From an uncultured Roseburia sp. (GTDB taxonomy: Bacteria > Bacillota > Clostridia > Lachnospirales > Lachnospiraceae), in NCBI GenBank assembly GCA_947649645.1, contig CANSSP010000006.1:62001-126000 (forward strand): a stretch of 64,000 nucleotides of DNA, written 5' to 3'. The notes beneath the pieces are model-generated. The model worked only from the letters and a program-made list of their open reading frames with translations. It ran no database searches and was not told where the DNA came from. A program made the translations under genes and the position numbers. Shown here piece after piece: positions 1,929-24,186 of the stretch; the first letter of the stretch is position 1; every line of letters begins with the position of its first letter.

Positions 1929-1952
1929 GGATAAAGTTTTCACGGGAAGGAA

Positions 1953-2624: not shown

Positions 2625-2681
2625 GTACGATAACTTTTTTACAAATCTGCAGGTCTCATTGCGTTACTGCAAAACTATGGC

Positions 2682-3635: not shown

Positions 3636-4369
3636 GGATCAGTATTATTACAATAGCCTATAATAGTGAAAAAAGTATCGGAGGCACAATAGAAGCCGTT
3701 CTGGCACAAAAGGAATCCGATCTAGAGTATCTGATTATAGATGGAAAAAGCACAGATAAGACGGTTGAAATTGCGGAGGGCTACCGGTCGCAGATGGAGA
3801 GGGCCGGTGTTGCGTATTCAATCGTCAGTGAACCGGATAAAGGAATCTATGATGCTATGAATAAAGGAATCCGGCTGGCCGGTGGCGATATTATTGGCAT
3901 TATAAACAGTGGAGACTGGTATGAACCTGGCACGATAAGTCTTGTGAAAAAATATTTTGCGAAGAAGAAATGTGATTTAATGTTTGGGAATATCCGGATT
4001 CACCGGAAAGGCGGCAATTCTTTCGTGAAGAAAGCAAGGATACGCAGGTTTCAGACTTCCAGAGACTGGAATCATCCGACCATGTTTGTGAAAGCAAGGC
4101 TTTATAAGGCGTATCCGTTTTTGTGCAGAGGGATTCATGATGATTATGGTTTTTATCTGAAAATGAGGAAGATGGGAGTGAAAATTCTGGCTGTCGATGA
4201 CGTACTTGCAAATTTTGAGATGGGCGGCGCGAGTAACAGAAAGAGTTTCGGGGAGGCAGTAAAACGAATCAGAGACAGATATCGGTATTGTTATCGTGTG
4301 AATGGGTATAGCAGGTGGTATTTTCTGGAGTGTGTGGCGATTGAGGCGGCGAAGTATATGATAGGGTAA
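3632..4369 (+). CDS. GT2 family glycosyltransferase
   Basis: ISIITIAYNSEKSIGGTIEAVLAQ...YLIIDGKSTDKT...SEPDKGIYDAMNKG. Confidence 0.92.
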   Translation: MRISIITIAYNSEKSIGGTIEAVLAQKESDLEYLIIDGKSTDKTVEIAEGYRSQMERAGVAYSIVSEPDKGIYDAMNKGIRLAGGDIIGIINSGDWYEPGTISLVKKYFAKKKCDLMFGNIRIHRKGGNSFVKKARIRRFQTSRDWNHPTMFVKARLYKAYPFLCRGIHDDYGFYLKMRKMGVKILAVDDVLANFEMGGASNRKSFGEAVKRIRDRYRYCYRVNGYSRWYFLECVAIEAAKYMIG

Positions 4370-4377
4370 GGAGTGAT

Positions 4378-5598
4378 ATGAGGGTTTTTCAGATAAATAC
4401 AGTGTATGGTTCGGGGAGCACGGGGCATATCGTGGCAGATTTAAAGCATATTATGGAGGATGCAGGAGAAGAGTGTTTTGTTGCGTTTGGGCGTGGGCGC
4501 AGCGAAGAGTGTTATACAAGCTGCGTGAGCAATAAAGCTGATCTGTACTGGCATGCCTTATTTACCCGTATCACAGATCGTACCGGACTTTATTCTGTTC
4601 ACGCCACGAAACGCATGATTGGTCTGATAAAAAAAATGCGGCCGGATATAATTCATCTTCATAATATTCACGGATACTATCTGAATATTAAGATGTTGTT
4701 TCATTTTTTTAAGGAATATGGGCGACCGGTTATCTGGACGTTTCATGATTGCTGGCCTTTTACCGGGCATTGTGCTTACTTTGAGAAATATGGAAAATAT
4801 GAATTGTGTAATAAATGGAAAAAACAATGTGAGAAATGTGACCGCATTTCCGAATACCCAAAAAGTCTGACAGACGGATCAAGAAAGAATTATATTCATA
4901 AAAAAGAAGTATTTACAGAATATGGGAATATAAGTATAGTCACCGTTTCTGATTGGTTAAAACAACGGGTGAATGAGTCATTTCTGGCAAAGTTTCCGGT
5001 TTACACGATATATAATGGTGTGGATCTGAATGTGTTTAAGCAATGTGATTCTGAGAAATTACGAATAAAATACAATCTGGAAAAAAAGAAGGTGGTACTT
5101 GGTGTGGCCAATATATGGTCTGGATTAAAGGGATTGACGGATTTCATTCAATTGGCAGGGGTGTTGGATAATACAGAGTATCAGATTGTATTGTTAGGGG
5201 TAGATGAAAAGGTCCAAAAAAACATTCCATATCAAATTCTCGCACTCCCAAGGACGGAATGCGTAGAAGAACTGGTAGAATGGTATAATACCGCAGAGGT
5301 GCATTTCAATGCCAGCAGGGCAGAGACATTTGGCATGACGGTGATTGAATCGCTTGCATGCGGGACGCCGGTTGTGTCGTATAATATTTGTGCGATGAAA
5401 GAAATTCTTGATGCGTCTTGTGGATATCTTGTAGACAAAATCGGAGATGTAAAGGAAGCTGCACGGTTTATTAGGAAGTGTAATAAGCCTGAGATGAAGC
5501 CGTCATGTATTGCCAGAAGTGTGGCGTTTGAAAAGAATATGCAATATCGGAAATATATGGCACTGTATAAAATGATTTTGGAGAAAAGCAGGGGATAA
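4378..5598 (+). CDS. GT4 family glycosyltransferase
   Basis: IIHLHNIHGYYLN; C-terminal NASRAETFGMTVIESLACGTPVVSYN. Confidence 0.92.
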   Translation: MRVFQINTVYGSGSTGHIVADLKHIMEDAGEECFVAFGRGRSEECYTSCVSNKADLYWHALFTRITDRTGLYSVHATKRMIGLIKKMRPDIIHLHNIHGYYLNIKMLFHFFKEYGRPVIWTFHDCWPFTGHCAYFEKYGKYELCNKWKKQCEKCDRISEYPKSLTDGSRKNYIHKKEVFTEYGNISIVTVSDWLKQRVNESFLAKFPVYTIYNGVDLNVFKQCDSEKLRIKYNLEKKKVVLGVANIWSGLKGLTDFIQLAGVLDNTEYQIVLLGVDEKVQKNIPYQILALPRTECVEELVEWYNTAEVHFNASRAETFGMTVIESLACGTPVVSYNICAMKEILDASCGYLVDKIGDVKEAARFIRKCNKPEMKPSCIARSVAFEKNMQYRKYMALYKMILEKSRG

Positions 5599-5601
5599 AA
5601 A

Positions 5602-6558
5602 ATGCGTGTATCGGTATGTATGGGGATTTATAATGGAATGCAGTACCTAAAAGAGCAGCTGGAGTGTATCAGAAAGCAGACGAGGAAACCGGATGAAGTT
5701 ATATTATGCGATGACGGTTCCACCGATGAGACACAGAAATTTCTGTACACATATTTAAAAAGCCATCGGGATACTTCGGACTGGAAACTGATTCTGAATG
5801 AAAAAAATAAGGGATATCCGGAAAACTTTTATTACGTCATGGATTTGTGCAGCGGCGATATCGTTTTTTCTGCCGATCAGGATGACCTCTGGGATCCCCA
5901 TAAAATAGAGCGCATGTGCAGGATTATGGAGAAAGAGAAAGAGATAAAGGTTCTCGGGTGTTCTTATGGACTGATTGACAGTGAGGATAAGGCGATCCGC
6001 ACGGTAATGGCGCCTGGCACGAAAAAAAACAGGCGGACGAGAAAACGGATATCCCTGGAAAACGTTTTTTATAAGTATGAATGGCCTGGTATGGTGCTTG
6101 CTTACAGAAATGCCTGGTATCAAAAATGTGTTGCGCAAGAGTGCGATGATAGGAGTACATTGCGGAAGATTCCGCATGATTTTCTGCTTTGTGTGCGGGC
6201 GGCGGAAGAAAAGGGATTTTATCAGATCGAAGAGAAACTGGCTTTTCACAGACGTCATGACAATAATACAGGAAAAGAGGAGCATAGATTTCATCGTCTG
6301 TTGAAGAAAAAAAGAAAGCTGGATGAGATTTCTGAGTATAGAAGGATGCTGGACAGGCTTTCGGATGGGAAAGTAATGCGGACGGGGGAAGGACAGCGGG
6401 TTCTGGAGAGTAAGCGTCTGGCGATGGAAAGCCGGTATGAGGCGCTGGTATCGGGGAAGATCAGTGCTGTGTTGAAAAGTGCGTGGAAATGGCGGAGTCA
6501 GGTTCGGGTTGCTACGGTAGTTTGTGATATTGTAATTGTGAGACAAACTGCCAGATAG
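5602..6558 (+). CDS. GT2 family glycosyltransferase (rhamnosyltransferase-like)
   Basis: VSVCMGIYNGMQYLKEQLECIRKQ...ILCDDGSTDET...FSADQDDLWDPHK. Confidence 0.92.
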   Translation: MRVSVCMGIYNGMQYLKEQLECIRKQTRKPDEVILCDDGSTDETQKFLYTYLKSHRDTSDWKLILNEKNKGYPENFYYVMDLCSGDIVFSADQDDLWDPHKIERMCRIMEKEKEIKVLGCSYGLIDSEDKAIRTVMAPGTKKNRRTRKRISLENVFYKYEWPGMVLAYRNAWYQKCVAQECDDRSTLRKIPHDFLLCVRAAEEKGFYQIEEKLAFHRRHDNNTGKEEHRFHRLLKKKRKLDEISEYRRMLDRLSDGKVMRTGEGQRVLESKRLAMESRYEALVSGKISAVLKSAWKWRSQVRVATVVCDIVIVRQTAR

Positions 6559-6804
6559 AAAAGTTTTTACAAAATTACTTACATTGAAACTGGAAGGTTA
6601 AGGGGAACATTTAATCAAAATGTTATTTTTGGTTGCAATTTTTTAGAGTATCGTTTAGAATAGATGCGAATATCAATTGTTGAATTTGTAGTGTTACAGG
6701 AATGTTGACTGACAAAAATGATTTTGGTATGCAGAGATTGGATGTTTGATTTTTTGTAGATTAAATATAGAAATTTGGAGTTTGGTTATAGTCTGGAGGG
6801 AAAA

Positions 6805-7644
6805 ATGGTACAACCCTTGGTTTCAGTTATAGTCCGCACCTGTCAGCGGCCAGAAGTTTTGAGAGTAGCTTTGTGTAGTTTGGAAAATCAAACATATAAG
6901 AACCTTGAAGTCGTGGTAGTTGAGGATGGGGATAATGTATCTGAGGAGCTCTTGAAAAAAGAATTTTCAAATTTAAATTATATATATAAATGCACTGGGG
7001 AAAAAGTCGGAAGATCAAGAGTGGGAAATATCGCGTTGGAACTGGCTGGTGGCGAGTATTTAAATTTTTTAGATGATGATGATGCTTTTTTGCCAGAGCA
7101 CATTGAATCTCTGGTAAGAGAACTTATTGGTGGCAAAGAAAGGGTTGCCTATAGTATTGCTGAAGAACGACAGATTGTAGTAAAATCCACGATGCCATAT
7201 TTATATAATGTTAAAAGAAAAACAATTCGCTATCATCAATGCTTTAATCGTATGCTGCTTTATTGTTTTAGTTATCTTCCAATTCAATGTGTGATGTTTC
7301 ATAAAAGCCTGTTTGAAGAATTAGGAGGATTTGATGAAAAATTAGATAATTTGGAGGATTGGGATTTGTGGGTAAGATACTCAACAAAAACTGATTTTGC
7401 GTATATTGATAAAGTTACATCTTATTATCATGTTCCATATAAGAATGAGATCAAGAAAAAGCGTTTAGCGAAATTCAAGAGTTACTATCCTTATTTATAT
7501 TGTAAATTTGAAAATTATAAGGTGGAAAGTAACGTTGCAAGTTTAAATAGGGATGTAATGTATATAATAAGAGAATATAAAACAAAAGGATTGATCCGGT
7601 ATCTCAGAATGTTTTTCCGAGCCGTATTTTATGGCGAAAGATAA
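6805..7644 (+). CDS. GT2 family glycosyltransferase
   Basis: VSVIVRTCQRPEVLRVALCSLENQTYKNLEVVVVEDG...NFLDDDD; ATG at 6805 preferred over the TTG at 6775. Confidence 0.9.
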   Translation: MVQPLVSVIVRTCQRPEVLRVALCSLENQTYKNLEVVVVEDGDNVSEELLKKEFSNLNYIYKCTGEKVGRSRVGNIALELAGGEYLNFLDDDDAFLPEHIESLVRELIGGKERVAYSIAEERQIVVKSTMPYLYNVKRKTIRYHQCFNRMLLYCFSYLPIQCVMFHKSLFEELGGFDEKLDNLEDWDLWVRYSTKTDFAYIDKVTSYYHVPYKNEIKKKRLAKFKSYYPYLYCKFENYKVESNVASLNRDVMYIIREYKTKGLIRYLRMFFRAVFYGER

Positions 7645-7665
7645 TATATTGAATAGGAGACTATT

Positions 7666-8451
7666 ATGATTCGTAGTTTGATTAGAAATAAAAAAACTAT
7701 ATGGGAATTAGGAAAGAACGACTGCCGGGCAAGATATTCATCGTCCATATTAGGGGCAATATGGATGATTCTGCAGCCTTTGACAAATATGCTGGTTATC
7801 TGGCTTGTTTTTGAAGTCGGTTTTAAAGCATCTAATTTATCTGAGGATGTTCCTTTTATAATATGGTACATGCCGGCTTTTTTGGTCTGGAATTTTTTTC
7901 AGGAATCGTTAAGCCAGGCATCGGGGAGTTTGCTGGAATATAGTTATCTGGTTAAGAAAGTTAATTTTGAAGTGGAAATTATTCCACCTATTAAAATTGT
8001 TTCAAATTCTTTTGTTCATGTTTTTTTTATGTTTTTTATTATATTTGTGAATTTTTGTTATGGGAAAATGCCTACAATTTTTTATTTGCAAGTGTTTTAT
8101 TATTATTTTTGTGCTGCTGCACTGGCATTGGCATTCGGCTGGTTTTTCTCGGCTTTTGCACCATTTGCAACAGATATAACCAATGTTGTGGCAATTATTC
8201 TGCAAATAGGGTTCTGGATAACACCAATTTTTTGGGATCCATCATCTTTGACAGATACAGCGATGTTTATTTTGAAACTTAATCCAATGTATTATGTTTG
8301 TATGGGATATCGTGATTGTTTTGTGTATAACATGCCGTTTTATAAACATCCGTTACTTGCGTGCTATTTCTGGTTTATAACAATAAGTATATGGTTTATA
8401 GGAACCAGATTATATAAAAAATCGAAAAAACATTTTGTGGACGTGCTTTGA
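7666..8451 (+). CDS. wzm: ABC-2 type polysaccharide exporter permease (Wzm-like)
   Basis: RARYSSSILGAIWMILQPLTNMLVIWLVF, multiple TM segments, adjacent to Wzt-like ATPase. Confidence 0.9.
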   Translation: MIRSLIRNKKTIWELGKNDCRARYSSSILGAIWMILQPLTNMLVIWLVFEVGFKASNLSEDVPFIIWYMPAFLVWNFFQESLSQASGSLLEYSYLVKKVNFEVEIIPPIKIVSNSFVHVFFMFFIIFVNFCYGKMPTIFYLQVFYYYFCAAALALAFGWFFSAFAPFATDITNVVAIILQIGFWITPIFWDPSSLTDTAMFILKLNPMYYVCMGYRDCFVYNMPFYKHPLLACYFWFITISIWFIGTRLYKKSKKHFVDVL

Positions 8452-8470
8452 TAAGGAGATTGTTATTATT

Positions 8471-9781
8471 ATGCAGACGAATGGTGTGTCAATAAAAGTT
8501 GAAAATGTTACAAAAGTGTATGATCTGTATAGTAATTCTCAAGATCGTCTGAAAGAAATAGTAAGTCTGACAGGAAAGAAATATCACAATGAATATTATG
8601 CTTTAAATGGGATCAGTTTTTCAGTTGGAAAAGGAGAGACTTTTGGTATTATAGGAACAAACGGTGCAGGTAAATCTACATTATTGAAGTTGATTACCGG
8701 CGTTGCATCTCCGACAAGCGGTAAAATAACAGTGAATGGAAGAGTCTCTGCTTTATTGGAATTGGGAGCAGGGTTTAACCCTAATTATACTGGGATACAA
8801 AATATATATTTAAATGGTGTTATGATGGGGTATTCCAGAGAAGAAATGGAGCAGAGGGTGAACCCGATTGTTCATTTTGCAGATATTGGAGAATTTATTA
8901 ATCAGCCTGTAAAGACATATTCGAGCGGGATGTTCGCGAGACTGGCATTTGCTGTTGCTATTAATATTGAACCAGAGATATTAATAGTCGATGAGGCATT
9001 ATCTGTAGGGGACGTGTTTTTTCAGAATAAGTGTTATAAAAAGTTCGAAGATCTGAGAAAAAAAGGAGTGACTGTAGTATTTGTATCTCATGATGTAGGA
9101 ACAGTAAAACAATTGTGTTCAAAAGTGTTGTGGATAGAACATGGTATACAGCAGATGGTTGGTGACAGTGTAGAAGTGTGCAATGAATACTCTAATAGTA
9201 TTTTGAGTAAAAGAGCACAGGAATATAAAGAAAATTTGAATAATGTAATTAGTACAGAGTCTGATCAGAGTAAAAAAGAATATCTGGATTTGGAGGAGTA
9301 CCCTGAAATTGAATATACGAATGAAAGTATTTTGAATGAAGAGGTACAGATTATTTCTGGTTTTCTATCAGATAAAGCAGGAGAATGTGTTTCTTCGTGT
9401 AAAGCAGGGGAAATATATACATTATCTATTGTGTTTTCTTCGGAGCGAGATATAGCTGAATGTATTGCAGGATTTGTAATCGAAACGGTAAAGGGACTTT
9501 GGGTTGTTAATTGTAATAGTCTGATTTCTGGAAATAAAGCGGGATTTGCAGTAAAAAAGAATTCTGTGAATAAAGTGAATTTTCAATTTGAAATGCCTCA
9601 ACTGGTAAATGGTGACTATATTATTGGAATTGCAATTTCTGAAGGTAATATCTTGGATTTTAAAGTGCTGACATGGTTATATAATGTGTTGTATCTGCAG
9701 ATTACTAATGTTGGAGGAAATGATGGCATTTTGCACTTAGATACACATGTTCAGATTTATAGCAGGGAAAAAGAAAAATGA
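8471..9781 (+). CDS. wzt: Polysaccharide ABC exporter ATPase with C-terminal Wzt-type carbohydrate-binding domain
   Basis: Walker A GTNGAGKST, signature YSSGMFARLAFAVA, Walker B ILIVDEALSVGD, ~170 aa C-terminal extension; ATG at 8471 preferred. Confidence 0.92.
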   Translation: MQTNGVSIKVENVTKVYDLYSNSQDRLKEIVSLTGKKYHNEYYALNGISFSVGKGETFGIIGTNGAGKSTLLKLITGVASPTSGKITVNGRVSALLELGAGFNPNYTGIQNIYLNGVMMGYSREEMEQRVNPIVHFADIGEFINQPVKTYSSGMFARLAFAVAINIEPEILIVDEALSVGDVFFQNKCYKKFEDLRKKGVTVVFVSHDVGTVKQLCSKVLWIEHGIQQMVGDSVEVCNEYSNSILSKRAQEYKENLNNVISTESDQSKKEYLDLEEYPEIEYTNESILNEEVQIISGFLSDKAGECVSSCKAGEIYTLSIVFSSERDIAECIAGFVIETVKGLWVVNCNSLISGNKAGFAVKKNSVNKVNFQFEMPQLVNGDYIIGIAISEGNILDFKVLTWLYNVLYLQITNVGGNDGILHLDTHVQIYSREKEK

Positions 9782-11196
9782 GTAAATATGATTTTGGATA
9801 TAATTTAGAGCCGGGAAGTACCAATGAATGGGCATATAGGAATATCGATGAAAATATGAAGGTTCTGGAAGTGGGGCCTGCTATAGGAAATCTCACATAT
9901 CATCTAAGTAAGGTGAAAAAATGCATAGTCGATATTGTTGAAATAGACGAAGAAGCTGGTCAGAAGGCAAAAAAATTTGCTAGAAATGCTCTGATTGGAT
10001 GTTGTGAAGGGGATTTAAATAAAGATATCTGGTATGGAAGAATAAATGAAGAAAGATATGATATCATTGTGGTTCTTGATGTATTAGAGCACTTGCAGGA
10101 TCCGGAGCGTATATTGAGACTGTTAAAAGGATTATTGAACACCAGTGGAAAAATTCTTTTATCAATTCCAAATGTGGCGCATAATGCAGTCATAATGCAA
10201 TTGCTTGATAATCGGTTTGACTATACAGATCTTGGGTTACTTGATAGAACACACATCCATTTTTTTGCTTATGATTCTATTTTGAAAATGATAGAGAATG
10301 CTGGATTGAATATTTCAGTAGCAGATGCAATAAATAAGGTTGTAAATGATACTGAAATTGATTGTTCTTTCTTAAAACTTCCAATTGAAGTCGACTATTT
10401 TCTGAGAACGAGGAAATATGGTGAAGTGTATCAATATCTATTTGAACTCCGTTTAAGAAATGAAACTATAGAGAATTGTATAGATAAAAATCATTTATGC
10501 GAGTCGCTTTATGATACAAAAATATTGGTTAATGGTTTGATTGAGAACCTTGTGAATATAAAAGTGGATCCTGAAAATATAAAAGTAGATTTTGATTTGC
10601 TGAATTATCATGAAGTGAAGAGTCTGAGATTTGTCCCTTATGAAGGTGCCTGTCTGGTTTCCAGACTTAAGGCAAGTGTTATATATGATGGTAAAACAGA
10701 AAAGGTAATTCCTAACTGGTCTTCTGGTATAAAAGTTGATGATGAGAATTGGATTTTATCAGAAGAGAACCACGAAATCAATTATCTGCTTGGTAATGAT
10801 GCAAGGAGATTCCGGATTGAATGTAGTTGCAGATTATTGAACGAAACCATACATGATGCGTTTGAGAAACAGGAGAGAATAAAAAGCGAAACCGCGAATG
10901 ACTTAGAAAGTCGTATGAAGCAATTGCTGGAAAATATATCGGAAAAGAATCAGAAAATAGATTGTCTGATGGAAGATATTGCTATTAAAGATCAGACGAT
11001 AGTGGAGCAGAACAATTCAATAAACAAGCAACAATATTCGATAAGTGAAATGAAAGAAACGATCGATTCCATCACATTACTGAATGAGAGAATAGATATG
11101 GAATTGACGACATTAAAGAACTCAAGATGGTATAAAGTGGTAACAAAGGTAAAAGAGCTTATACAGCTGATAAGGGGAGGATTATGGAAAAAGTAA
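9778..11196 (+). CDS. SAM-dependent methyltransferase with long C-terminal coiled coil
   Basis: MKVLEVGPAIGNLTYHL...DIIVVLDVLEHLQDPERIL; heptad-like C-terminus (RMKQLLENISEKNQKIDCLMEDIAIKDQTIVEQ). Confidence 0.85.
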   Translation: MSKYDFGYNLEPGSTNEWAYRNIDENMKVLEVGPAIGNLTYHLSKVKKCIVDIVEIDEEAGQKAKKFARNALIGCCEGDLNKDIWYGRINEERYDIIVVLDVLEHLQDPERILRLLKGLLNTSGKILLSIPNVAHNAVIMQLLDNRFDYTDLGLLDRTHIHFFAYDSILKMIENAGLNISVADAINKVVNDTEIDCSFLKLPIEVDYFLRTRKYGEVYQYLFELRLRNETIENCIDKNHLCESLYDTKILVNGLIENLVNIKVDPENIKVDFDLLNYHEVKSLRFVPYEGACLVSRLKASVIYDGKTEKVIPNWSSGIKVDDENWILSEENHEINYLLGNDARRFRIECSCRLLNETIHDAFEKQERIKSETANDLESRMKQLLENISEKNQKIDCLMEDIAIKDQTIVEQNNSINKQQYSISEMKETIDSITLLNERIDMELTTLKNSRWYKVVTKVKELIQLIRGGLWKK

Positions 11197-12020
11197 GTGT
11201 AATTATGCCCTGTTATAATGATGGTATATATATTAAAGAGGCAATTGAGTCGGTAAAAAGACAGACATATCCAGATATAGAATTAATTGTGATAGATGAT
11301 GGTTCTGATGACAAGCAAACGATTGATACATTACAGGCGATGAAAGATGAGATTGTTTTATTGCATACGGATCATTTAAGGCCGGCAGGGGCAAGGAATT
11401 ATGGGGTCAGTAAAGCTACGGGGCGTTATATAATGCCGGTTGATTCGGATGATATAATCGATAAGACTTACATTCAGAAGGCAGTTGAAATTATTGAATC
11501 AAAAGAAAATGTGGGCGTAGTTTATTGTGAGGCGGAGCTGTTTGGAGAAAAAACAGGTAAATGGGAGCTGCCTGCTTATTCTTTAGATAAAATGTTATTG
11601 GATAACATTGTTTTTGTTACTGCATTGTTTTATCGGGAAGATTGGGAGAAAGTTGGTGGTTTTAATACACATATGGTGGCAGGAATGGAAGACTATGATT
11701 TCTGGCTTTCCATTTTAGCCTTGGGAAGAGATATATATCAGATTCCCGAAATATTGTTTCATTATCGAATTAAGCCGACATCCCGGACGACAGGATTTCA
11801 GTCTGATTATGTGCAAATGCAGAATACATATAGACAAATATATGATAATCATAGAGAGTTTTATGCGGAATATTGTGAGGAATATGCTAAAATATTGAGA
11901 GATGCATTGGTAGAACAAGTTGCTATAAGAATGAAATATGAACGAATTTTTGAAAAAGTACAAAAATATTACAGATATCCTGTTATTGGAAAAATTATAA
12001 AAAAGATTATTGGCACTTGA
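11184..12020 (+). CDS. GT2 family glycosyltransferase
   Basis: VSVIMPCYNDGIYIKEAIESVKRQTYPDIELIVIDDGSDD...GARNYGV. Confidence 0.93.
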   Translation: MEKVSVIMPCYNDGIYIKEAIESVKRQTYPDIELIVIDDGSDDKQTIDTLQAMKDEIVLLHTDHLRPAGARNYGVSKATGRYIMPVDSDDIIDKTYIQKAVEIIESKENVGVVYCEAELFGEKTGKWELPAYSLDKMLLDNIVFVTALFYREDWEKVGGFNTHMVAGMEDYDFWLSILALGRDIYQIPEILFHYRIKPTSRTTGFQSDYVQMQNTYRQIYDNHREFYAEYCEEYAKILRDALVEQVAIRMKYERIFEKVQKYYRYPVIGKIIKKIIGT

Positions 12021-12042
12021 AAAGATAGGAGAAATTTTCAGT

Positions 12043-13143
12043 ATGATAATATTTACATCAATTTGCACTAATTACGCACATAAGGCAAGAACGTTAGCGG
12101 AATCAGTAAAAAGAAACATTCCGGATGCTCGTTTTTTTGTTTGTCTGACGGAGAGATCTATACCGGAATCAATGCAGTATGAACATTTTGATAAAGTAAT
12201 TTTGGCTAAAGATATGTGGCCTGGCAATTTTAACAGATATATTTATAAACATGCAATCGTTGAAGCGTCAACTGCTGTAAAAGGACATTTCTTTAAGTAT
12301 TTAATAGATAATTATCCGGAAGAGAATAAATTTGTTTATTTGGATCCTGATTGTTACGTTTATTCTGATTTTGTGGAACTGCGTGAGTTATTGAAGTCGA
12401 GGCCAATTATCTTATGTCCGCATTTGCTTCAGCCGGGTAATATAGATATGGAATTATCGTCAACTGCGCATGGAGTATATAATCTGGGTTTTTTGGCAGT
12501 GAACAGAAGCGAGGAAGCAGTCAGGTTTATTAATTGGTGGGCGGATCGACTATATTTATTTTGTTATGATGATATTTTGAGGGGGATATTTACAGATCAG
12601 AAATGGATTGATCTTGCGCCATGCTTTTTTGATGTGGAAGTGTTTAAGCATCGGGGATATGATTTCGCCACATGGTCTTTGCTTGATTGCGGGATGACAA
12701 AAGAAAGCGATGGATATTATGTAAAAGGAGCTCCCTTGCGATTTATTCACTTTTCGGGATATGGAGCGACGATAGAAAAATGTATGAATGACTGGTTGCC
12801 AGAGGGAGAGCATCCTTTTAAGGAGCTTTATCGAAACTATTCAGAAATACATGAAAATAATAATAAGGATCAGGTTTCCCGTACAGAATGGAGTTATGGT
12901 CAATATTATTCTGGAGAAAAAATTGATGATGCTCTTCGCATAATGTATCGTAATAATAATGATGTGATGTTTGGGATTGAAGATCCGTTTGCTTTGAGCA
13001 ACGTGGAGCTGAAACAGCTTTTTTTGAATGATAATTCTAAAAAAACATATGATAAAATAACAAAATCAATAAAAGATGATGGTGTAAAAAAGACTATTTT
13101 GCGAGGAATGAATTTTGTAAAAAGAAAAATGAGTAAAGAGTAA
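12043..13143 (+). CDS. GT8-like glycosyltransferase
   Basis: IFTSICTNYAHKARTLAESVKRNIPDARFFVCL...KFVYLDPDCYVYSDF (DXD-like); ATG at 12043 preferred. Confidence 0.7.
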   Translation: MIIFTSICTNYAHKARTLAESVKRNIPDARFFVCLTERSIPESMQYEHFDKVILAKDMWPGNFNRYIYKHAIVEASTAVKGHFFKYLIDNYPEENKFVYLDPDCYVYSDFVELRELLKSRPIILCPHLLQPGNIDMELSSTAHGVYNLGFLAVNRSEEAVRFINWWADRLYLFCYDDILRGIFTDQKWIDLAPCFFDVEVFKHRGYDFATWSLLDCGMTKESDGYYVKGAPLRFIHFSGYGATIEKCMNDWLPEGEHPFKELYRNYSEIHENNNKDQVSRTEWSYGQYYSGEKIDDALRIMYRNNNDVMFGIEDPFALSNVELKQLFLNDNSKKTYDKITKSIKDDGVKKTILRGMNFVKRKMSKE

Positions 13144-13203
13144 TTTGTAGCTAATGGTCAGGCTATATGACGAATATAGCGGTTGAGTCTTTGGAGATGT
13201 AGA

Positions 13204-14312
13204 ATGGATATGCCAGATAAGGTATCTGAGAGTGGTAGAGAATCAAATATTGAACTTCTTCGAATTGTGTCGATTATGGGGGTTATAATACTTCATTATA
13301 ATAATGCCGGGATTGGGGGGGGGGGGCGCAATATGTAGTAAATTATTCACTTAATTACTGGATACTAATTATTTTAGAGTATTTATTTATTGGTTCAGTT
13401 GATTTGTTTGTTATAATAAGTGGTTATTTTATGTGCAACTCAGATCAGAGAGAGATGACAAAACCTTTGTCACTCCTTATTCAGACTGTCATTTTTTCTG
13501 CAATTACATATATACTGAAAGTGTTTGAGGGAGGTATTGTGTTTTCTGCAGAGGGTATGGCAGGTGCATTGCTTCCATGTAATTATTTTGTTATATTGTA
13601 TATAGTTTTATATTTGATTTCGCCCTTTGTAAATATTTTGATAAAGAGTTTAGATGAATCACATTTTACTTACTTCATGCGTTTGTGTATATTTTTATTT
13701 GCTGTATGCCCTAGCGCTGTTGATATTTTAACTCAGATCACGCATAAAGAATGGATGGGATTATCTACTGTGGGTATGTATGGAAGCCAGTATGGTTATT
13801 CTGTTGTTAATTTTATTCTGATGTATTTAATAGGAGCATATGTCAGGTTTAAGGAATATGAGTTTAGCAAGGTAAGTAAATTAAAATTGTTAACATTACT
13901 CGGATGTATTCTTGTTGTCCTTATAATATGGGGAAATATAAATCCATTAACGGCACAGGAATATTGTAATCCTGTTGTTATTTTTGAGAGTGTTACTATT
14001 TTTTTATTATTCAAGAGAATGCATTTTGGCGAGATTAAGTGGCTGAATAAGGTTGCGGAGGGAACATTTACAGTATTTCTGTTACATTTGGTATTTTTAG
14101 AAAAATTTGATATAAAAAAAGCTGTCACAGGAAATTGGATGTGGATGATATTACACATTCTGGGAGTGGTAATTTTTATTTATTTTATCTGCTGGTGTAT
14201 ATTTTTAGCGTATAAATGTATCATGGACGGAAAGACTGTGAGATTGTTAAAAGGGAAAATATTGCGCATGACGGTAGGAAGATATAAAAATAGCAGTTCT
14301 GACAATTGGTGA
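13204..14312 (+). pseudogene. Acyltransferase-3-family gene frameshifted at a 12-G tract (predicted phase-OFF, not necessarily dead)
   Basis: ATG 13204 reads MDMPDKVSESGRESNIELLRIVSIMGVIILHYNNAGIGGGGRNM*; after a +1 shift the frame continues AQYVVNYSLNYWILIILEYLFIGSVDLFVIISGYFMC... to 14312. Confidence 0.85.
13315..13326 (+). repeat. Homopolymeric G12 tract inside the acyltransferase coding sequence
   Basis: gattGGGGGGGGGGGGcgcaat counted directly. Confidence 0.95.
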
Positions 14313-14330
14313 TTGTATAAAGGAGCGGAG

Positions 14331-16688
14331 ATGGAACAAAAAATAAGTAGGCACAAAGAGCTGATAAAGCGCATGTCCAGGATATGTTTGATTATTTTAT
14401 TTGAAATAGTAGTCTATGGTATTTTTAATGAATTGAAATCTGAGATAAAAAGTCTGTGCGTTTTTATTATGTGTATGGCGCCTTTTTTGATTTGGTTTTG
14501 CTCTGAAAAATATATTGAGATGAATATTGATATTTTTTCTGAAAACAGAGACAGTCGGACAAAGAATGCTATAGATATGTTTGTTCTGGCCGTTGATGCA
14601 GAAATCATCGCTCTTTTTTTTGACAGAATAATATTATTGCTTCTATACAAACTGGTAGCTGCATACGATATTTTGTTAAAAGGATATTTAGAACAAATAC
14701 GTTTTTTTTCATTCTGGCGGATTCAATATTGGTTTATATTTATATTTATTATACTGTTAGTGTTCTATCTGGGATTTGAAAAGAGCTTTCAGAACCGATA
14801 TATATTGGCGGCGGTTTTATTTATTTATCTGGTTATGGGACAATATCATGGTTCATCAATTGGTTATCTCTCTGGAATGCTGGTTGAACACACTGAAAAC
14901 TATGACAAGACAACATTGATCGGTATAAATCAGGGATTGAGAGGGGATGAATGGGCAGTAGATTTGCCATTAAGCATAGGTCAATGCTATAGCGATGAAA
15001 AATTTCCTTATTACAATGATAATCTGATGATTAATGGTTGTGATGTTATGGTATCAGCAAAGCTTCCGGTGAACGATGTATTGGCTTTATTTAATCCGCT
15101 TAAATGGGGATATTATTTTTTACCAATAGAGAATGCCGTAGCTTTTGGATGGTGGCTTCCATTGTTTGCTGTATTTCTTTCTTCCATTGATATGATGTAT
15201 GAATTATGCAGGAAAAAGAAAGTATCTGTTGCGTATGGGGGAATGATTTTATTTTCACCATGTGTACAATGGTGGTATAGTATTTCGGTTCTTATATTTT
15301 CGGGTCAGTATCTTATTGTTGCATTAAATAGATTTCTGGTAGAAAAGGGGAAAGTAAAAAGAATATTGCTGACAGCGTTTGCATCTCTTTGTGCTAATAC
15401 GTTTATGTTTGTTATATACCCTGCATGGGAGATCCCATTTCTTTACTTTTTTTTGATTCTGATTGTATGGGTATTTTGGAGGAATTGGGAAGGTAAGCCC
15501 TTAAAAAAAGAAAATATTTTAGCATATTTCATGGTATTGTTGTCTTGCATGGCTTTTGGAATCAGATTTCTGCTTTTGTCTGGTGAAGCTATGCAGGTTC
15601 AGTTGAATACGACTTATCCTGGTAATATACGAGCGTGGGAAATGGTTCCAATTGATATATTTTTATTACAGATAATTAATGTATTTATGTCATTTGGAAA
15701 ATATTCAACATATATGAATAACTGTGAGATTAGTCAGTTTTATGGGATGTTTTTCTGGTCTTTTATTTTATGGATTAGTATAGTAAGAAAAAAAGCAGAG
15801 AAAATTAGGGAGAAAAGATTAATATCAATATTAGTAATATTCAATTTACTGTTATTGTACTATATTTTTGGTCCCCAATTACCGCATTTATATAATATAA
15901 CTCTGCTTTCTTTTTCATATCCAAGAAGAATGCTTTCCCTTTTTGGGTATTCTTCGATGGTTATTTTGATGTTATTGTTAGGCTGTTGTATAGAAAACAA
16001 AATGATTGATAAAGGAAAGGCAAAGATTTTTGCGGCTGTCTGTTTTGTTATTGTAGCAGGTATAGCTGTAAATAATAATATAATAAGAGAATATGTAAAC
16101 GGAAGTATTTTGTTTTTTGTGTTTGTAATTGTAGTGATTGGCATTTGGGCATATACTGGTTATACAATTATTTCGGGTCATAGTCTGAAAAGAGGGATAA
16201 CTTTTCTGTTAGTTATTTCAGTGGCTTCATCAGCATTTGTAAATCCTGTACAGCGTGGATTGGATGATTTATTCGAAAGTTCATTAATATCAAAAATATA
16301 TGAAATAAGTGAACAGAGTACTGGACGGTGGTTAGTTAGTGGTAATTCTACAATTTCTAATATTGTCACAGCATGTGGGATCAAGAGGCTGACGGGAACG
16401 TACGTTTATCCTGATATTCCAATGTTTGAAATCATAGATCCTGACCATGATTATGAGGATAGCTGGAATCGATATGCTCATATTGATATGGAATTGTCAA
16501 ATGAAAATCGTATTGAATCGTTTGGGGCTGGTCTTAATGTTGGTATAGACGTAGAGACGGCTCAAAAGCTAGATGCAGAATATTGGGTTATCAACAGAGT
16601 AGTCGATACAAATATGTTTGAAGGTGTTGACATAGTTCAGATATATAATAGTGCTGAATGGTATATATATAAATTAATCTATAAATGA
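14331..16688 (+). CDS. Large polytopic membrane protein, possibly a GT-C-like or polysaccharide-associated protein
   Basis: Many hydrophobic segments, conserved-looking RGDEWAVDLPLS motif after the first TM block; locus context. Confidence 0.55.
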   Translation: MEQKISRHKELIKRMSRICLIILFEIVVYGIFNELKSEIKSLCVFIMCMAPFLIWFCSEKYIEMNIDIFSENRDSRTKNAIDMFVLAVDAEIIALFFDRIILLLLYKLVAAYDILLKGYLEQIRFFSFWRIQYWFIFIFIILLVFYLGFEKSFQNRYILAAVLFIYLVMGQYHGSSIGYLSGMLVEHTENYDKTTLIGINQGLRGDEWAVDLPLSIGQCYSDEKFPYYNDNLMINGCDVMVSAKLPVNDVLALFNPLKWGYYFLPIENAVAFGWWLPLFAVFLSSIDMMYELCRKKKVSVAYGGMILFSPCVQWWYSISVLIFSGQYLIVALNRFLVEKGKVKRILLTAFASLCANTFMFVIYPAWEIPFLYFFLILIVWVFWRNWEGKPLKKENILAYFMVLLSCMAFGIRFLLLSGEAMQVQLNTTYPGNIRAWEMVPIDIFLLQIINVFMSFGKYSTYMNNCEISQFYGMFFWSFILWISIVRKKAEKIREKRLISILVIFNLLLLYYIFGPQLPHLYNITLLSFSYPRRMLSLFGYSSMVILMLLLGCCIENKMIDKGKAKIFAAVCFVIVAGIAVNNNIIREYVNGSILFFVFVIVVIGIWAYTGYTIISGHSLKRGITFLLVISVASSAFVNPVQRGLDDLFESSLISKIYEISEQSTGRWLVSGNSTISNIVTACGIKRLTGTYVYPDIPMFEIIDPDHDYEDSWNRYAHIDMELSNENRIESFGAGLNVGIDVETAQKLDAEYWVINRVVDTNMFEGVDIVQIYNSAEWYIYKLIYK

Positions 16689-16781
16689 TTGTGAAAAATT
16701 TGTTGATTATGTTTTGAGTCTATTAAAGTGAGAAATGAGTTTTATGATATTTTTGTTGATGTATTTTTAGAAAGGCGGATT

Positions 16782-17492
16782 ATGTGTATGAAAGTACTGG
16801 CTATTATTCCTGCCTATAATGAGGAAAAAAGTATATTGGGCGTGATTCAGAAATTGAACAGTGATTGTGCAGAAATAGATTACCTTGTTGTCAATGACTG
16901 TTCGAGAGATAATACATTATATGTTTTGGAAAATGCAAGCGTGAAATATGTATCTTTGCCATTAAATCTTGGAATTGGGGGAGGAATTCAGGCAGGGTAT
17001 AAATTTGCATTGCGAAATGATTATGATATAGCGGTTCAGATAGATGGTGACGGACAGCATGATACATCCTTTTTGAGAACCGTTACAAAACCTATTGAAT
17101 CCGGAGAGGCTGATATAGTAATTGGTTCAAGGTTTATTGATAAACAGGGATTTCAGTCGTCTGGTATGAGGCGTATAGGAATTCGATTTCTGAGTTTGTT
17201 AATACAGGTTTGCTGTGGAATTAAAGTGCATGATGTTACAAGTGGGTTTCGTGCAGTTAATCGTAAATTTATCGAGGAATATGCAAAAGAGTACCCTATA
17301 GATTATCCTGAACCGGAGGCAATTGTCAAGGCTTCGGTTCAGGGGGCCAGAATATTAGAAGTACCGGTTATAATGAAAGAGAGAGAGAATGGTACAAGTT
17401 CAATTTCAGCATGGAAATCAGTGTATTATATGATAAAAGTGTCTCTGGCAATTATATTATGCAGACTTTCAAATAGTAGAAAGGAACATTAG
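16782..17492 (+). CDS. GT2 family polyprenyl-phosphate (dolichol-phosphate-mannose synthase-like) glycosyltransferase
   Basis: VLAIIPAYNEEKSILGVIQKL...NLGIGGGIQAGYKFA...VQIDGDGQHD...DIVIGSRF. Confidence 0.92.
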   Translation: MCMKVLAIIPAYNEEKSILGVIQKLNSDCAEIDYLVVNDCSRDNTLYVLENASVKYVSLPLNLGIGGGIQAGYKFALRNDYDIAVQIDGDGQHDTSFLRTVTKPIESGEADIVIGSRFIDKQGFQSSGMRRIGIRFLSLLIQVCCGIKVHDVTSGFRAVNRKFIEEYAKEYPIDYPEPEAIVKASVQGARILEVPVIMKERENGTSSISAWKSVYYMIKVSLAIILCRLSNSRKEH

Positions 17493-17493
17493 A

Positions 17494-17853
17494 ATGACAG
17501 GTACATTGAGGGTAATTCTTATAGTTGCGCTTTTGTTTTATTTTATAATTGTTTTTTTCCTTTTAAAAAAGAGACGGCTGGCTTTAAAGTATTCATTGCT
17601 GTGGTTGTTTATGGGAATCACAATGACTATGCTTGTGGTTTTTCCAAGGCTTCTGGAAATATTCTGCAGATTGTTTGGAATTGCCGATACAATGAATGGC
17701 CTGTTTACTTTTGCCATTGGTTTTATTCTTATGTTGTTGATGGCATTGACCTCAATTGTTTCGAAACAAAGTGATAGAATCAAGGAACTTGTACAAGAAA
17801 GTGCATTAATGGAGAAGAGAGTGCGGGATCTGGAGAAGGAAATACAGAAGTGA
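17494..17853 (+). CDS. DUF2304-like small membrane protein
   Basis: Three TM segments plus a charged coiled C-terminus, directly downstream of a DPM-like GT2, the usual pairing. Confidence 0.75.
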   Translation: MTGTLRVILIVALLFYFIIVFFLLKKRRLALKYSLLWLFMGITMTMLVVFPRLLEIFCRLFGIADTMNGLFTFAIGFILMLLMALTSIVSKQSDRIKELVQESALMEKRVRDLEKEIQK

Positions 17854-19079
17854 AAAGAAATGTTTTGTGGAATACAGCAGGTAGTGTATTTTATTGTGTG
17901 TGTCAATGGCTCATTACAGTTATTGTTGTTCGGCTATCTTCTTACGAAAATGCAGGTTATTTATCGTTAGCGATGACAACAAGTAGTAGTTTTTCAACCA
18001 TCTCCTTGTTTAGTATGCGCAATTTTCAAGTGTCTGATGTGAAAGGAGAGTATAATAATGATGTTTATGTGGGGAGTCGTATTTTAACATGTTTTTTTGC
18101 TCTGGTATGTTGTACATTGACAATTTTAAGGGGGAACTCATGTTATCAGATCATATGTATAGAAGCATTTATGGTTGTCAGGATTGCTGAGGCGATTGTA
18201 GATGTGATGCATGGAATTGATCAGAAGTATGATCATTATGATTTTATAGGAAAATCATACATCATTCGAGGAATTATTACGGTTTGTTCATTTACATTTA
18301 CGCAGGTGGTTTTGGGAGATCTGGCCATCACACTTTGTGTGATGGCATTGCTCAATTGTATGGCTGCTTTTTTGTTTGATTGGAAAAAAACTTATAATCT
18401 GGATTTCTTTCGACCATTAGTATTAGATAAAAAGGTATGGGAATTGCTTGGAAAATGTTTTCCGATTGTTATTTTTTCTTTTTTGCTTAGTGTGGAAAAT
18501 TTATTGCCAAAAACAATTTTACAACAGCAATATGGGGCAGAAGAGTTGGGAATTTATTCTTCTATAGCATCACCAACGTTGATTGTTCAGGTTTTTTCGG
18601 CAGTTGTTTTTAATCCGTTTTTACCGGCTCTTTCAGAACTATACTATAGGGGAGAAATAAAGCGATTTAGAAAGATGCTCCATAGAACTTTCTTATTATT
18701 GATAGGAATGTGTGTTATAGTAAATATAGGTGCTGCGATCTTAGGACGTTTTGGGCTGACTTTACTGTTTGGCAGAGGAATACTGGAGTATTATGATTTG
18801 TTTTTTCCGATTGTATGGTGTACTATTTTAATAGCGATCATCTGGATTGTTTCTGCAGTTCTTGTGGCGCTCAGACAGATTCGCTGGCTGTTAACCGGTA
18901 TGATTTTTGATTTTTTGATATGTGTGAGTCTGGCACGCAGATTGATTGAATGTTATGGAAAAAACGGGGTGAGTTTCGTGCAGATTATTGTCTATCTGGC
19001 TTACATTATCTTTATGGTAATAATATGCGAGATGGTGCTATATAAACAGGAGAAAAAATGCAGAGAGGAGAAAAGTTAA
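17850..19079 (+). CDS. Polysaccharide flippase (Wzx/MATE-like)
   Basis: ~12 TM segments, start overlaps the upstream gene, locus context. Confidence 0.75.
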   Translation: MKRNVLWNTAGSVFYCVCQWLITVIVVRLSSYENAGYLSLAMTTSSSFSTISLFSMRNFQVSDVKGEYNNDVYVGSRILTCFFALVCCTLTILRGNSCYQIICIEAFMVVRIAEAIVDVMHGIDQKYDHYDFIGKSYIIRGIITVCSFTFTQVVLGDLAITLCVMALLNCMAAFLFDWKKTYNLDFFRPLVLDKKVWELLGKCFPIVIFSFLLSVENLLPKTILQQQYGAEELGIYSSIASPTLIVQVFSAVVFNPFLPALSELYYRGEIKRFRKMLHRTFLLLIGMCVIVNIGAAILGRFGLTLLFGRGILEYYDLFFPIVWCTILIAIIWIVSAVLVALRQIRWLLTGMIFDFLICVSLARRLIECYGKNGVSFVQIIVYLAYIIFMVIICEMVLYKQEKKCREEKS

Positions 19080-19083
19080 GAAA

Positions 19084-19878
19084 ATGTATAGAGGAAGAGA
19101 TCATACATTTTTAATATGTGCGTATAAAGAAAGCCCATATCTGGAAGCATGTATAAAATCATTGTTGAAACAGACAGTTAAAAGTCATATCTTAATTTCT
19201 ACATCGACACCATGCGCATATATAACCACGCTTGCAAAAAAATATAAACTTAGTGTTATGGTCAACGACGGGGAAAAAGGTATTGCGCACGATTGGAATT
19301 ATGGATATAAACGGACAGAAACTCCGCTTGTTACGATTGCACACCAGGATGATATTTATTTGCCGGAATTTTTGGAAAAATCGCTTGATGTTATTAATGA
19401 TTCAAAAAAACCATTAATTGCATTTACCGATTATGGTGAATTGAGAAATGGTAAAAAAGTTTATAACACTAATTTATTGAAGATAAAAAGAGTATTGCTA
19501 TTTCCTTTGCGTTTTAAAATATTCAAAGGAAGCAGGTGGATGCGAAGGAGAAGCCTCGCATTTGGTTCTGGCATTTGTTGTCCGTCCGTGACCTATGTTA
19601 AGCCGAATTTGCCGGCGCAGGTGTTTGAGGCAGGATACAGAAGTGATGTTGACTGGCAGGCATGGGAACGTCTGTCAGGATTGAAAGGGGATTTTTTATA
19701 TTACAGACATCCTTTGATGTTACATCGTATTCATGAAGACTCTGAAACGTCTCATATTATTGCGGATAACCAGAGAAGCAGGGAAGATTATGAGATGTTC
19801 TGCAGATTCTGGCCGAAATCGGTTGCAAAAATATTGGCTTTTTTTTATAGCAGAGGCGAAAAATCAAATAGTTTGTAG
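19084..19878 (+). CDS. GT2-like glycosyltransferase
   Basis: FLICAYKESPYLEACIKSLLKQT...VNDGEKGIAHDWNYGYKR...AHQDDIYLPEFLEK. Confidence 0.85.
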   Translation: MYRGRDHTFLICAYKESPYLEACIKSLLKQTVKSHILISTSTPCAYITTLAKKYKLSVMVNDGEKGIAHDWNYGYKRTETPLVTIAHQDDIYLPEFLEKSLDVINDSKKPLIAFTDYGELRNGKKVYNTNLLKIKRVLLFPLRFKIFKGSRWMRRRSLAFGSGICCPSVTYVKPNLPAQVFEAGYRSDVDWQAWERLSGLKGDFLYYRHPLMLHRIHEDSETSHIIADNQRSREDYEMFCRFWPKSVAKILAFFYSRGEKSNSL

Positions 19879-19900
19879 AACAGGAGAAGAGGAGAGCAGA

Positions 19901-20962
19901 ATGATTGAGTGGAAAAATTGGAAACAGTATAAAAATAATTTTGAGAAAAGTAAAGAATATAGATCTGTATTAGTATATGGAGATGAAGTAAACAGTGACA
20001 TTGACATCGCTGTTATGATTCCGACATTTAAGAGAAGCAGGTTTTTGAAACAGGCAGTTGATAGTGTTCTGAGGCAAAAAGGAGATTTTAAATACACTAT
20101 TTTTGTTATTGATAATTGTGATGAAATTGATAAAGATACAGATGATCTGATGAGGGAATATTGTGAAAAAAATGATTGTATAAAATACTATAGAAATCAA
20201 AAAAATCTTGGTATGTTTGGAAATTGGAATCGATGTATAGAATTGGCACCGACTGCCTGGTTTTGTATTTTAAATGATGATGACATGCTGAAGGAATCAT
20301 TTTTAGAAAAGATTATTCCTGTGACACAACATACAAGTTGTGGACTTTTTGGAACTTATAGGGAATTATTAGACGAGAGGGCAGATGAAGAAAAGCGGAA
20401 CAAAATTGAATATGGATGGATTACAAAAACAGGAATAGATTTGTTTATTCGGATGAATGCTGGAAGGATTATTCCAATGGTGTTGAAAGATGTGGTATAT
20501 AACAGGCATTTTCCGTGTAATCCACTTATTCTGAATAAAGAAAAAAGTATGAAATTGGGAGGCTTCAATGATGAATATAAGCCGTTTGCGGATATGGTAT
20601 TTACGGCTAATATGTTTGCAAGGTATGGTGCCTGCATTTTGCCGGATCGATTGACCGTATGTCGATTTTCTCAGAACGAGTCCACAAAAATGGAGGTATT
20701 GTGGGCTATTATGGAAATTGCTTCTGGACTTGCGGTCTGCGCTGCAAAAGAATTGGGATATGACCGTTCTAATGTGGAGAAGGCCAGACAGGAAGCGGTT
20801 CTGATTGAGTATAATATTTTTCCGTCTGTAAAACATAAAATAGATTTTGAGGATGTGATTTTAAAGTTTAAGCTGAATTCCAGATATAGAAATGTATTAT
20901 TTCGGAATTTTGTTATGTTAAAATATAAACTGGGATGGGCGTTTCTTTTTATTAGGAAATAA
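19901..20962 (+). CDS. GT2 family glycosyltransferase
   Basis: DIAVMIPTFKRSRFLKQAVDSVLRQK...NLGMFGNWNRCIELAPTAWFCILNDDD; ATG 19901 preferred over 19733. Confidence 0.9.
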   Translation: MIEWKNWKQYKNNFEKSKEYRSVLVYGDEVNSDIDIAVMIPTFKRSRFLKQAVDSVLRQKGDFKYTIFVIDNCDEIDKDTDDLMREYCEKNDCIKYYRNQKNLGMFGNWNRCIELAPTAWFCILNDDDMLKESFLEKIIPVTQHTSCGLFGTYRELLDERADEEKRNKIEYGWITKTGIDLFIRMNAGRIIPMVLKDVVYNRHFPCNPLILNKEKSMKLGGFNDEYKPFADMVFTANMFARYGACILPDRLTVCRFSQNESTKMEVLWAIMEIASGLAVCAAKELGYDRSNVEKARQEAVLIEYNIFPSVKHKIDFEDVILKFKLNSRYRNVLFRNFVMLKYKLGWAFLFIRK

Positions 20963-20999
20963 TAGTATAAATTTTACGAAAGGTAGTGTGCAGAGAGGG

Positions 21000-21782
21000 A
21001 TGAAAACAATAATATTAGCGGGTGGTTTTGGGACCAGAATATCTGAAGAAAGTCATTTAAAACCAAAGCCGATGATTGAAATCGGGGGAATGCCGATTAT
21101 GTGGCATATTATGAAATTATATTCGCATTATGGTTTTAATGATTTTATTATTTGCGCAGGTTATAAGCAGTATATTATTAAAGAATATTTTTCTAATTAT
21201 TTTATACACAAAAGTGATATTACTTACGATTTTACAACAGGAAAACATGATATGATCATTCATAATAATTCGGCGGAGCCATGGCGGGTAACTGTAGTGG
21301 ATACCGGGTTAAATACTATGACGGGGGGACGGATAAAAAGGGTGAAGAAGTATCTTGGGGAAGAGCCGTTTATGGTGACATATGGCGATGGTGTTTCAGA
21401 TGTTGATATTGAGAAATTGTTATTGTTTCATAAATCGCATGGAAAACGTATGACTCTTACGGGAATACAGCCGGAAGGGCGGTTTGGGGTCATGGGATTT
21501 GATGGAGAAGATAGTGTGCGCGCATTTCATGAGAAGCGCAAGGAGGATAGCGGATGGATAAATGGTGGTTTTTTAGTATGCAACGCAGAAGTGCTTGATT
21601 ATATTGAAGATGATACGATCACATTAGAACGGGAGCCGATGGAAAAGCTTGCAGAAGAGGGAGAACTGATGTGTTATAAGCATTATGGATTCTGGCAATG
21701 TATGGATACGCTTCGCGATAAAGAAAAATTGGATAAGCTGTGGGAAGAAAATCGTGCTCCATGGAAGGTATGGAATGAATAG
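21000..21782 (+). CDS. rfbF: Glucose-1-phosphate cytidylyltransferase
   Basis: MKTIILAGGFGTRISEESHLKPKPMIEIGGMPIMWHIMKLYSHYG signature; paired with the CDP-glucose 4,6-dehydratase downstream. Confidence 0.95.
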   Translation: MKTIILAGGFGTRISEESHLKPKPMIEIGGMPIMWHIMKLYSHYGFNDFIICAGYKQYIIKEYFSNYFIHKSDITYDFTTGKHDMIIHNNSAEPWRVTVVDTGLNTMTGGRIKRVKKYLGEEPFMVTYGDGVSDVDIEKLLLFHKSHGKRMTLTGIQPEGRFGVMGFDGEDSVRAFHEKRKEDSGWINGGFLVCNAEVLDYIEDDTITLEREPMEKLAEEGELMCYKHYGFWQCMDTLRDKEKLDKLWEENRAPWKVWNE

Positions 21783-21814
21783 TCAGGTGATTAAATTGTA
21801 TAATTAGGAGAGTT

Positions 21815-22818
21815 ATGTTACAGAAGAGCACAAACTTACATTTTTCCCGTTTTATAGCGGCGATATTGGTTATTTTTTCACATTCTTTTGTCATTACTCA
21901 AGGGAAAGTATCCGATGAGTGGCTGTTTAAATTAACAAAGGGACAATTAGATTTTGGAGCACTTGCAGTTGCCGTATTTTTTTTAGGGGGGGGTATTTGG
22001 CTGCAGGTGCAATGAATAAATACTCCGGTCTGAGAAAATATCTGACTGCACGTCTGGTAAGAATATTGCCGGCGCTAATATTTGTGGTGATCTGTTGTGT
22101 ACTTGTGGGCAGTATTATTTCGAGCTATAGTTTTTTTGAGTATTTTAAAAATGCTGAAACATATCGGTATTTGTTAAATGGATTTATGATATTACAACAC
22201 AACCTTCCGGGAGTGTTTGAGGAAGCGGTATATATACCAACAGTAAATGGTTCGTTATGGACGCTTCCGGTAGAGTTTTTATGTAATATTATGTGTTACT
22301 TAGTGTTTCAATTGGGTTTTTTTGATGAAAAAAAATTTGTCTGGACAGTTCCTTTCGTTTTATCAGGTACGATATTGCTTATCAGGGTCGGGCTTAAGAT
22401 TCCAATTATAAAAGAGGTTCTTGGTCCATGTCTGTTGTTTTATATAGGGATTGTTTATTGGATTTATCGTGAGCGGATAAAGTATGATATCAGATATATG
22501 GGAATAGCTGCTGTCTGTCTGGCTGCATGTTCTTTAGCCGGAGTGCTTCAAATCGGGCTGCTTATTTTTTTTCCGTATATTATGTTGAGCTGGTGGTTTA
22601 AAAGCAGACAACTGTTTTGTCGGATTTCGAAACTGGGTGATTATTCATATACGATGTATTTATGGGGATTTCCTGTACAGCAGTTTATAGCAGAAAGATT
22701 TAATTGGAATGTATCACCTTATATGAACACGTTTATTGCTATACCTGTCTGTTTTATGTTAGCATTTTTTACGTATTATTGTATTGAGAAACCAGGTAAA
22801 AAATTATTCCAAATGTGA
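21815..22818 (+). pseudogene. Acyltransferase-3-family gene frameshifted at a G8 tract (predicted phase-OFF)
   Basis: ORF 21815-22015 (LHFSRFIAAILVIFSHSFVITQG...GALAVAVFFLGGG) and ORF 21997-22818 (AAGAMNKYSGLRKYLTARLVRILPALIF...) become continuous if the tract gains one G (FFLGGGYLAAGAMNKYSGLRKYL). Confidence 0.88.
21986..21993 (+). repeat. G8 tract preceded by T8A inside acyltransferase CDS
   Basis: gtaTTTTTTTTaGGGGGGGGtatttgg counted directly. Confidence 0.93.
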
Positions 22819-22855
22819 AATAGCGAAGATTTGATTAAAAAGGAAAGGAAAGGCC

Positions 22856-24151: not shown

Positions 24152-24186
24152 ACAAAGTGAGAGGAGGGAGAAAATTGTTTTTTGAT

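Follow-up and report, generated by a model that had tools for sequence, protein, structure and literature searches.

The stretch of DNA analysed here, 64,000 nucleotides from the draft genome of an uncultured Roseburia sp. (contig CANSSP010000006.1, positions 62,001 to 126,000; hereafter the window), probably contains, within a single surface-polysaccharide cluster, a small group of slipped-strand contingency loci. Three genes of this cluster, two for acyltransferases and one for an FAD-dependent oxidoreductase, carry a poly-G tract, and both acyltransferase genes are out of frame as assembled. The tracts and their frames, the unity of each interrupted gene, the family identity of the products, their clustering and the recurrence of such tracts in relatives are established. 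Slipped-strand phase variation is the best-supported reading of the tracts; that their length varies reversibly within the population we infer. The genes, frames and tracts of the polysaccharide cluster described below are on the plus strand.

A G12 tract within an acyltransferase-3 gene

The initial annotation had reported a G12 tract, followed within a few codons by a stop, in a phase-variable acyltransferase gene that is currently OFF. Both the tract (13315..13326) and the stop (TAG at 13336-13338) are present exactly as it described them. The frame opening at ATG 13204 (13204..13338) ends ...HYNNAGIGGGGRNM after 44 codons, which include TM1 and the R-X10-H motif, and the gene is thus OFF as assembled. 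When tract lengths of 8-16 G were tried in silico, the frame reached the stop at 14310-14312 only with 10, 13 or 16 G, in agreement with the earlier claim that 10 or 13 G restores it to 14312; with either of these lengths a single acyltransferase-3 of 368 or 369 amino acids (acyltransferase 1) is predicted. The downstream frame (13305..14312; 335 amino acids) is otherwise uninterrupted up to its own stop and includes AQYVVNYSLNYW...IISGYFMC, identical to the sequence quoted in that annotation.

The assignment to the acyltransferase-3 family proved sound. The read-through product matched Pfam Acyl_transf_3 (PF01757) over model positions 3-324 with 64.3 bits, above the curated cut-off of 31, whereas the downstream part alone scored 48.6 bits. 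Alignments with homologues from the family's other genera begin at residue 8-12 of the upstream piece and run into the C-terminal region, and these homologues span the tract site at full length; the tract itself comes immediately behind the TM1 histidine, at a point where Gly-Gly occurs in several of them. By these scores and alignments the upstream and downstream pieces are one gene.

The R/K-X10-H motif of TM1 is present in acyltransferase 1 (R20-H31), as is VDLFVIISGY, and the RxxR of the first cytoplasmic loop is absent. R-X10-H has been reported to be essential in OafA/OafB, and RxxR and VxxFFx(I/V/L)SG(F/W/Y) are each common to many, not all, acyltransferase-3 members (PMC9558356). Since R-X10-H lies upstream of the tract and VDLFVIISGY downstream, neither piece is likely to form a working enzyme alone. 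No close relative of the downstream frame was found among 85,000 species genomes, and the best matches to the gene among 299 family genomes were only ∼31% identical, so that no comparison of tract length among orthologues could be made and the FAD oxidoreductase gene was taken as the codon control.

Two further tracts in the same cluster

It had been overlooked that the G12 locus belongs to a set, which includes a second broken acyltransferase. This acyltransferase-3 gene of the same cluster (acyltransferase 2, ATG 21815) is interrupted at a G8 tract (21986..21993) directly preceded by T8-A. Its upstream frame (21815..22015) consists of 66 codons, contains R-X10-H and ends in TGA at 22013-22015, while the downstream frame (21931..22818; 295 amino acids) is otherwise uninterrupted up to its own stop. 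Addition of one G yields a 334-amino-acid product, and 6 G is also in frame, with one residue less. The read-through product matched PF01757 over model positions 5-323 with 68.7 bits (cut-off 31), compared with 42.6 bits for the downstream part, and the homologues continue through the tract site at full length.

The motifs of acyltransferase 2 are again divided between the two frames, with R12-H23 of TM1 upstream and RLVR downstream. The G8 tract lies inside the FFxxSG motif and, with one G added, the spacing is that of the AVxxFFxxSGxL segment of homologues; the sequence there is VAVFFLGGGY, with Gly replacing the usual Ser, and one homologue (L114) likewise has GG at this point. One substitution in the corresponding motif of Legionella Lag1 abolished activity (PMC9558356). 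A simple hydropathy scan found six and eight strong segments in acyltransferases 1 and 2 respectively, in a family with about ten transmembrane helices. No G run above 6 was found in the homologues of the two acyltransferases that were examined.

Directly after acyltransferase 2 lies the gene for the FAD-dependent oxidoreductase (22856..24151; Amino_oxidase / NAD_binding_8), which is in frame (ON). Its G9 tract (22876..22884), 7 codons past the start, encodes LGGG of the Rossmann motif. Relatives of this enzyme are spread over many phyla, and the longest G run at the LGGG motif in any of 51 homologues was five; the G9 is therefore not explained as a by-product of the protein motif.

All three tracts are contained in the surface-polysaccharide cluster (57..25242), whose genes were identified partly by Pfam matches and partly by reading of ORFs. 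It encodes sugar-nucleotide enzymes, glycosyltransferases, a nucleotidyltransferase, a GDP_Man_Dehyd-type dehydratase, an ABC exporter ATPase with Wzt_C, a DUF7657 membrane protein and a flippase-like protein. Elsewhere in the window, 33427-54366 holds a large fatty-acid/polyketide-like cluster, judged from ORFs only, with a carboxyltransferase-like fusion, ketosynthases, thioesterase- and dehydratase-like proteins, reductases, flavin oxidoreductases, paired C39-like proteins, an ABC transporter and a phosphopantetheinyl transferase.

Long G runs across the genome and alternative explanations

The genome is a 3.07-Mb draft in 41 contigs, in which a poly-G artefact occurs at the end of at least one contig. 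The G12 tract exceeds in length every other G run of the window and, with the poly-G/poly-C tail that ends contig C7 excluded, every other one found in the genome. In 162 kb of the genome, both strands counted, G runs of lengths 4-7 numbered 487, 116, 11 and 4, and the counts flattened at lengths 8-12 (3, 1, 1, 0 and 1). A first-order Markov model predicted 0.016 runs of at least 12 G over the whole window and 0.0009 over the surrounding 20 kb. The tracts are longer than chance would give, and gain or loss of a single unit alters the frame; there are several in the genome, and they are enriched in genes for surface structures, as contingency loci are. A length beyond chance at a frame-altering position agrees with the earlier description of the placement of the G12 tract as the classic slipped-strand signature.

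Runs of at least eight G occur at seven places in the 3.07 Mb, six of them plausible. Three of the six are within the 9.6 kb of the window described above (P about 6e-4 for uniform placement) and four are in glycan genes. The fourth is a G10 on the minus strand of contig C8 (13983-13992; L030 2984-2993), out of frame in a gene for a PIG-L-type deacetylase. The gene has genes for a CMP-sugar transferase, a formyltransferase, NeuC and NeuB as neighbours and a flagellin gene close by, in what is a nonulosonate/flagellin-glycosylation island, which makes it a surface-glycan gene also; the consequence of this frame break is less certain, because the Pfam domain of the deacetylase ends ahead of the tract. 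The G17C12 at C7:139651-139679 (L029 3152-3180) lies 82 bp from the contig end and was left out as probably an artefact of reads or assembly. The two remaining plausible runs are G8 and in frame, in genes that look ordinary; one is at C7:30441 in the linker of an apparent substrate-binding lipoprotein and the other at C15:43508 in a protein rich in repeats.

Both acyltransferases are broken in the one genome of the species, as would be seen had they been permanently lost through chance indels in G runs, leaving undecayed pseudogenes of fixed tract length. Such loss is unlikely: the downstream frames are otherwise fully open over 335 and 295 amino acids, the breaks in the two genes fall at the two rarest kinds of site that the genome has, next to a gene with an in-frame G9, and a different glycan island shows a third break of this type, in the deacetylase gene.

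Errors of assembly or sequencing in the tract lengths, with the genes in truth always in frame, are quite improbable. A G12 is difficult on any platform, and contig C7 does end in a poly-G/poly-C tail. However, all 60 of the A/T runs of at least seven within long ORFs of the window are in frame and frame breaks occur only at G runs, which argues against a homopolymer-prone sequencing platform. The tracts lie in mid-contig, flanked on either side by correct gene sequence, and long G tracts would remain unusual even with counts off by one. A run of eight G is short enough for reliable short-read sequencing.

Joining of the frames at the level of RNA or the ribosome, by transcriptional slippage or programmed frameshifting, would supply some full-length enzyme without a change in DNA, and homopolymer runs of such length can support polymerase slippage, with T8-A preceding the tract of acyltransferase 2; this is hardly credible, given that the homologues have no conserved tract or slippery arrangement and that such joining cannot operate at the promoter-spacer tracts of relatives.

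With slipped-strand phase variation as the preferred reading, the earlier claim that the acyltransferase is phase variable gains from its context, namely several surface-glycan tracts, another broken acyltransferase, a neighbour with G9 in frame and poly-G tracts across the genus and family, although the switching itself is deduced from sequence. The interpretation in the initial annotation is likely to be right, and broader than was stated.

Predicted switch states

Under slipped-strand phase variation, gain or loss of a single G at replication would shift each of the three genes into or out of frame independently. Acyltransferase 1 (G12) would be in frame with 10 or 13 G and acyltransferase 2 (G8) with 9 or 6, while the FAD enzyme would be in frame with its present G9; the assembled state would correspond to both acyltransferases OFF and the FAD gene ON. 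The substrate of the acyltransferases is presumably the glycan of the cluster, and glycan O-acylation, the reaction proposed initially, is suggested by the enzyme family and the neighbouring genes. As either frame alone is without motifs that the enzyme needs, the polysaccharide exported in the assembled state would miss two acyl (probably acetyl) groups.

Comparison with known phase-variable systems

Phase variation of an acyltransferase-3 (AT3) is described for oafA of Haemophilus influenzae in PMC9558356 and PMC11868660, and the window resembles it in the AT3 family and, as predicted here, in the switching ON and OFF by frameshift of an O-acetyltransferase for surface sugars. The H. influenzae gene acts on a Gram-negative lipooligosaccharide, whereas here a polysaccharide cluster of Clostridia would be concerned, with two AT3 genes and a neighbour bearing tracts. 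Such switches are classic in pathogens such as Campylobacter, which has many poly-G surface genes (PMC8437040). The capsule, LOS and flagellin-modification loci of C. jejuni contain clustered poly-G genes that are ON or OFF independently (described in part in PMC8437040), and the genome of the window also has poly-G in a flagellin-glycosylation island; however, it belongs to another phylum and has far fewer tracts, and its switching is predicted.

Homopolymer tracts, especially near the 5' ends of genes, were proposed as a means of reversible gene inactivation in PMC2831843, where the passages covered emphasise poly-A and poly-T and describe no poly-G switches for this lineage. Invertible promoters, cited in PMC11868660 for gut Clostridia and Bacteroides, likewise bring about phase variation of gut-bacterial surface functions, but through recombinase-driven inversion, whereas slippage is proposed here. 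A word search of that 2025 review of phase variation gave neither Lachnospiraceae nor Firmicutes, and Clostridioides only in connection with invertible promoters and a signal transducer. No slipped-strand phase variation or contingency loci were found for Lachnospiraceae, Roseburia or Firmicutes in the open-licence literature that was searched. The kind of switch is already known; its use in this lineage, promoter spacers included, is apparently undescribed.

Poly-G tracts in relatives

We lean towards the view that a whole gut-type family of Clostridia, probably Lachnospiraceae to judge by gene content and the very many genera it comprises, has a poly-G contingency programme not described before, which combines frame switches in glycan genes with tracts in the -35/-10 spacers of promoters for secreted and cell-wall proteins. 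If so, single cells of a gut-type lineage would differ in the acylation of their surface polysaccharide and in their surface proteins, with relevance to phage attack, antibodies and host recognition, and in draft genomes the switched genes would appear as pseudogenes or split ORFs, with their functions under-counted as a result.

G runs of at least ten were present in 26 of 63 genus genomes; some are contig-end junk, and many are within genes and out of frame as assembled. As identified by reading of the sequences rather than by a family scan, out-of-frame G tracts occur in glycosyltransferase-like proteins (L089, L092), and another species of the genus (L086) has three G10-G11 tracts in 9 kb (5931, 7057 and 14713); a single asparagine-synthase-like gene contains two of them, and the third falls close to the end of a NeuD-like acetyltransferase gene. 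On a 3.6-Mb contig, by the same kind of reading, an out-of-frame G10 stands between both halves of an HsdS-like specificity subunit (L082 2416-2425), and may possibly switch the specificity of DNA methylation.

Homopolymers between the -35 and -10 boxes are known from porA and opc of Neisseria and from fim of Bordetella. Tracts in the same position were found in relatives, where G8-G13 fills the spacer (L205-L250, near position 1501), as in TTGACA-N9-G11-TAAAAT. The relatives differ in having many unrelated promoters, known from sequence alone, in which the G run abuts the -10 box; this held at nearly all sites examined, with spacers mostly of 18-20. No promoter-spacer homopolymers were found in the window's own genome, nor was a homologue of the poly-G-promoter surface protein.

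A pattern search recovered poly-G promoter spacers from 12 of 63 genus genomes (none with a reversed-pattern control), 49 of 397 family genomes (four with the control) and 13 of 234 good-quality genomes sampled across the class. Poly-C occupied the same promoter position in one of the 63 genus genomes. An N-terminal hydrophobic segment, scored by a crude hydropathy test and not a signal-peptide predictor, was present in 28 of 39 genes behind poly-G promoters compared with 89 of 311 control ORFs from poly-G-promoter genomes (Fisher P 2e-7). Genes behind these promoters include those for a sortase, a LytR-CpsA-Psr protein and an MBOAT acyltransferase. What appears, from its product and the next gene, to be the same promoter in four species carries G11, G8, G10 and G8.
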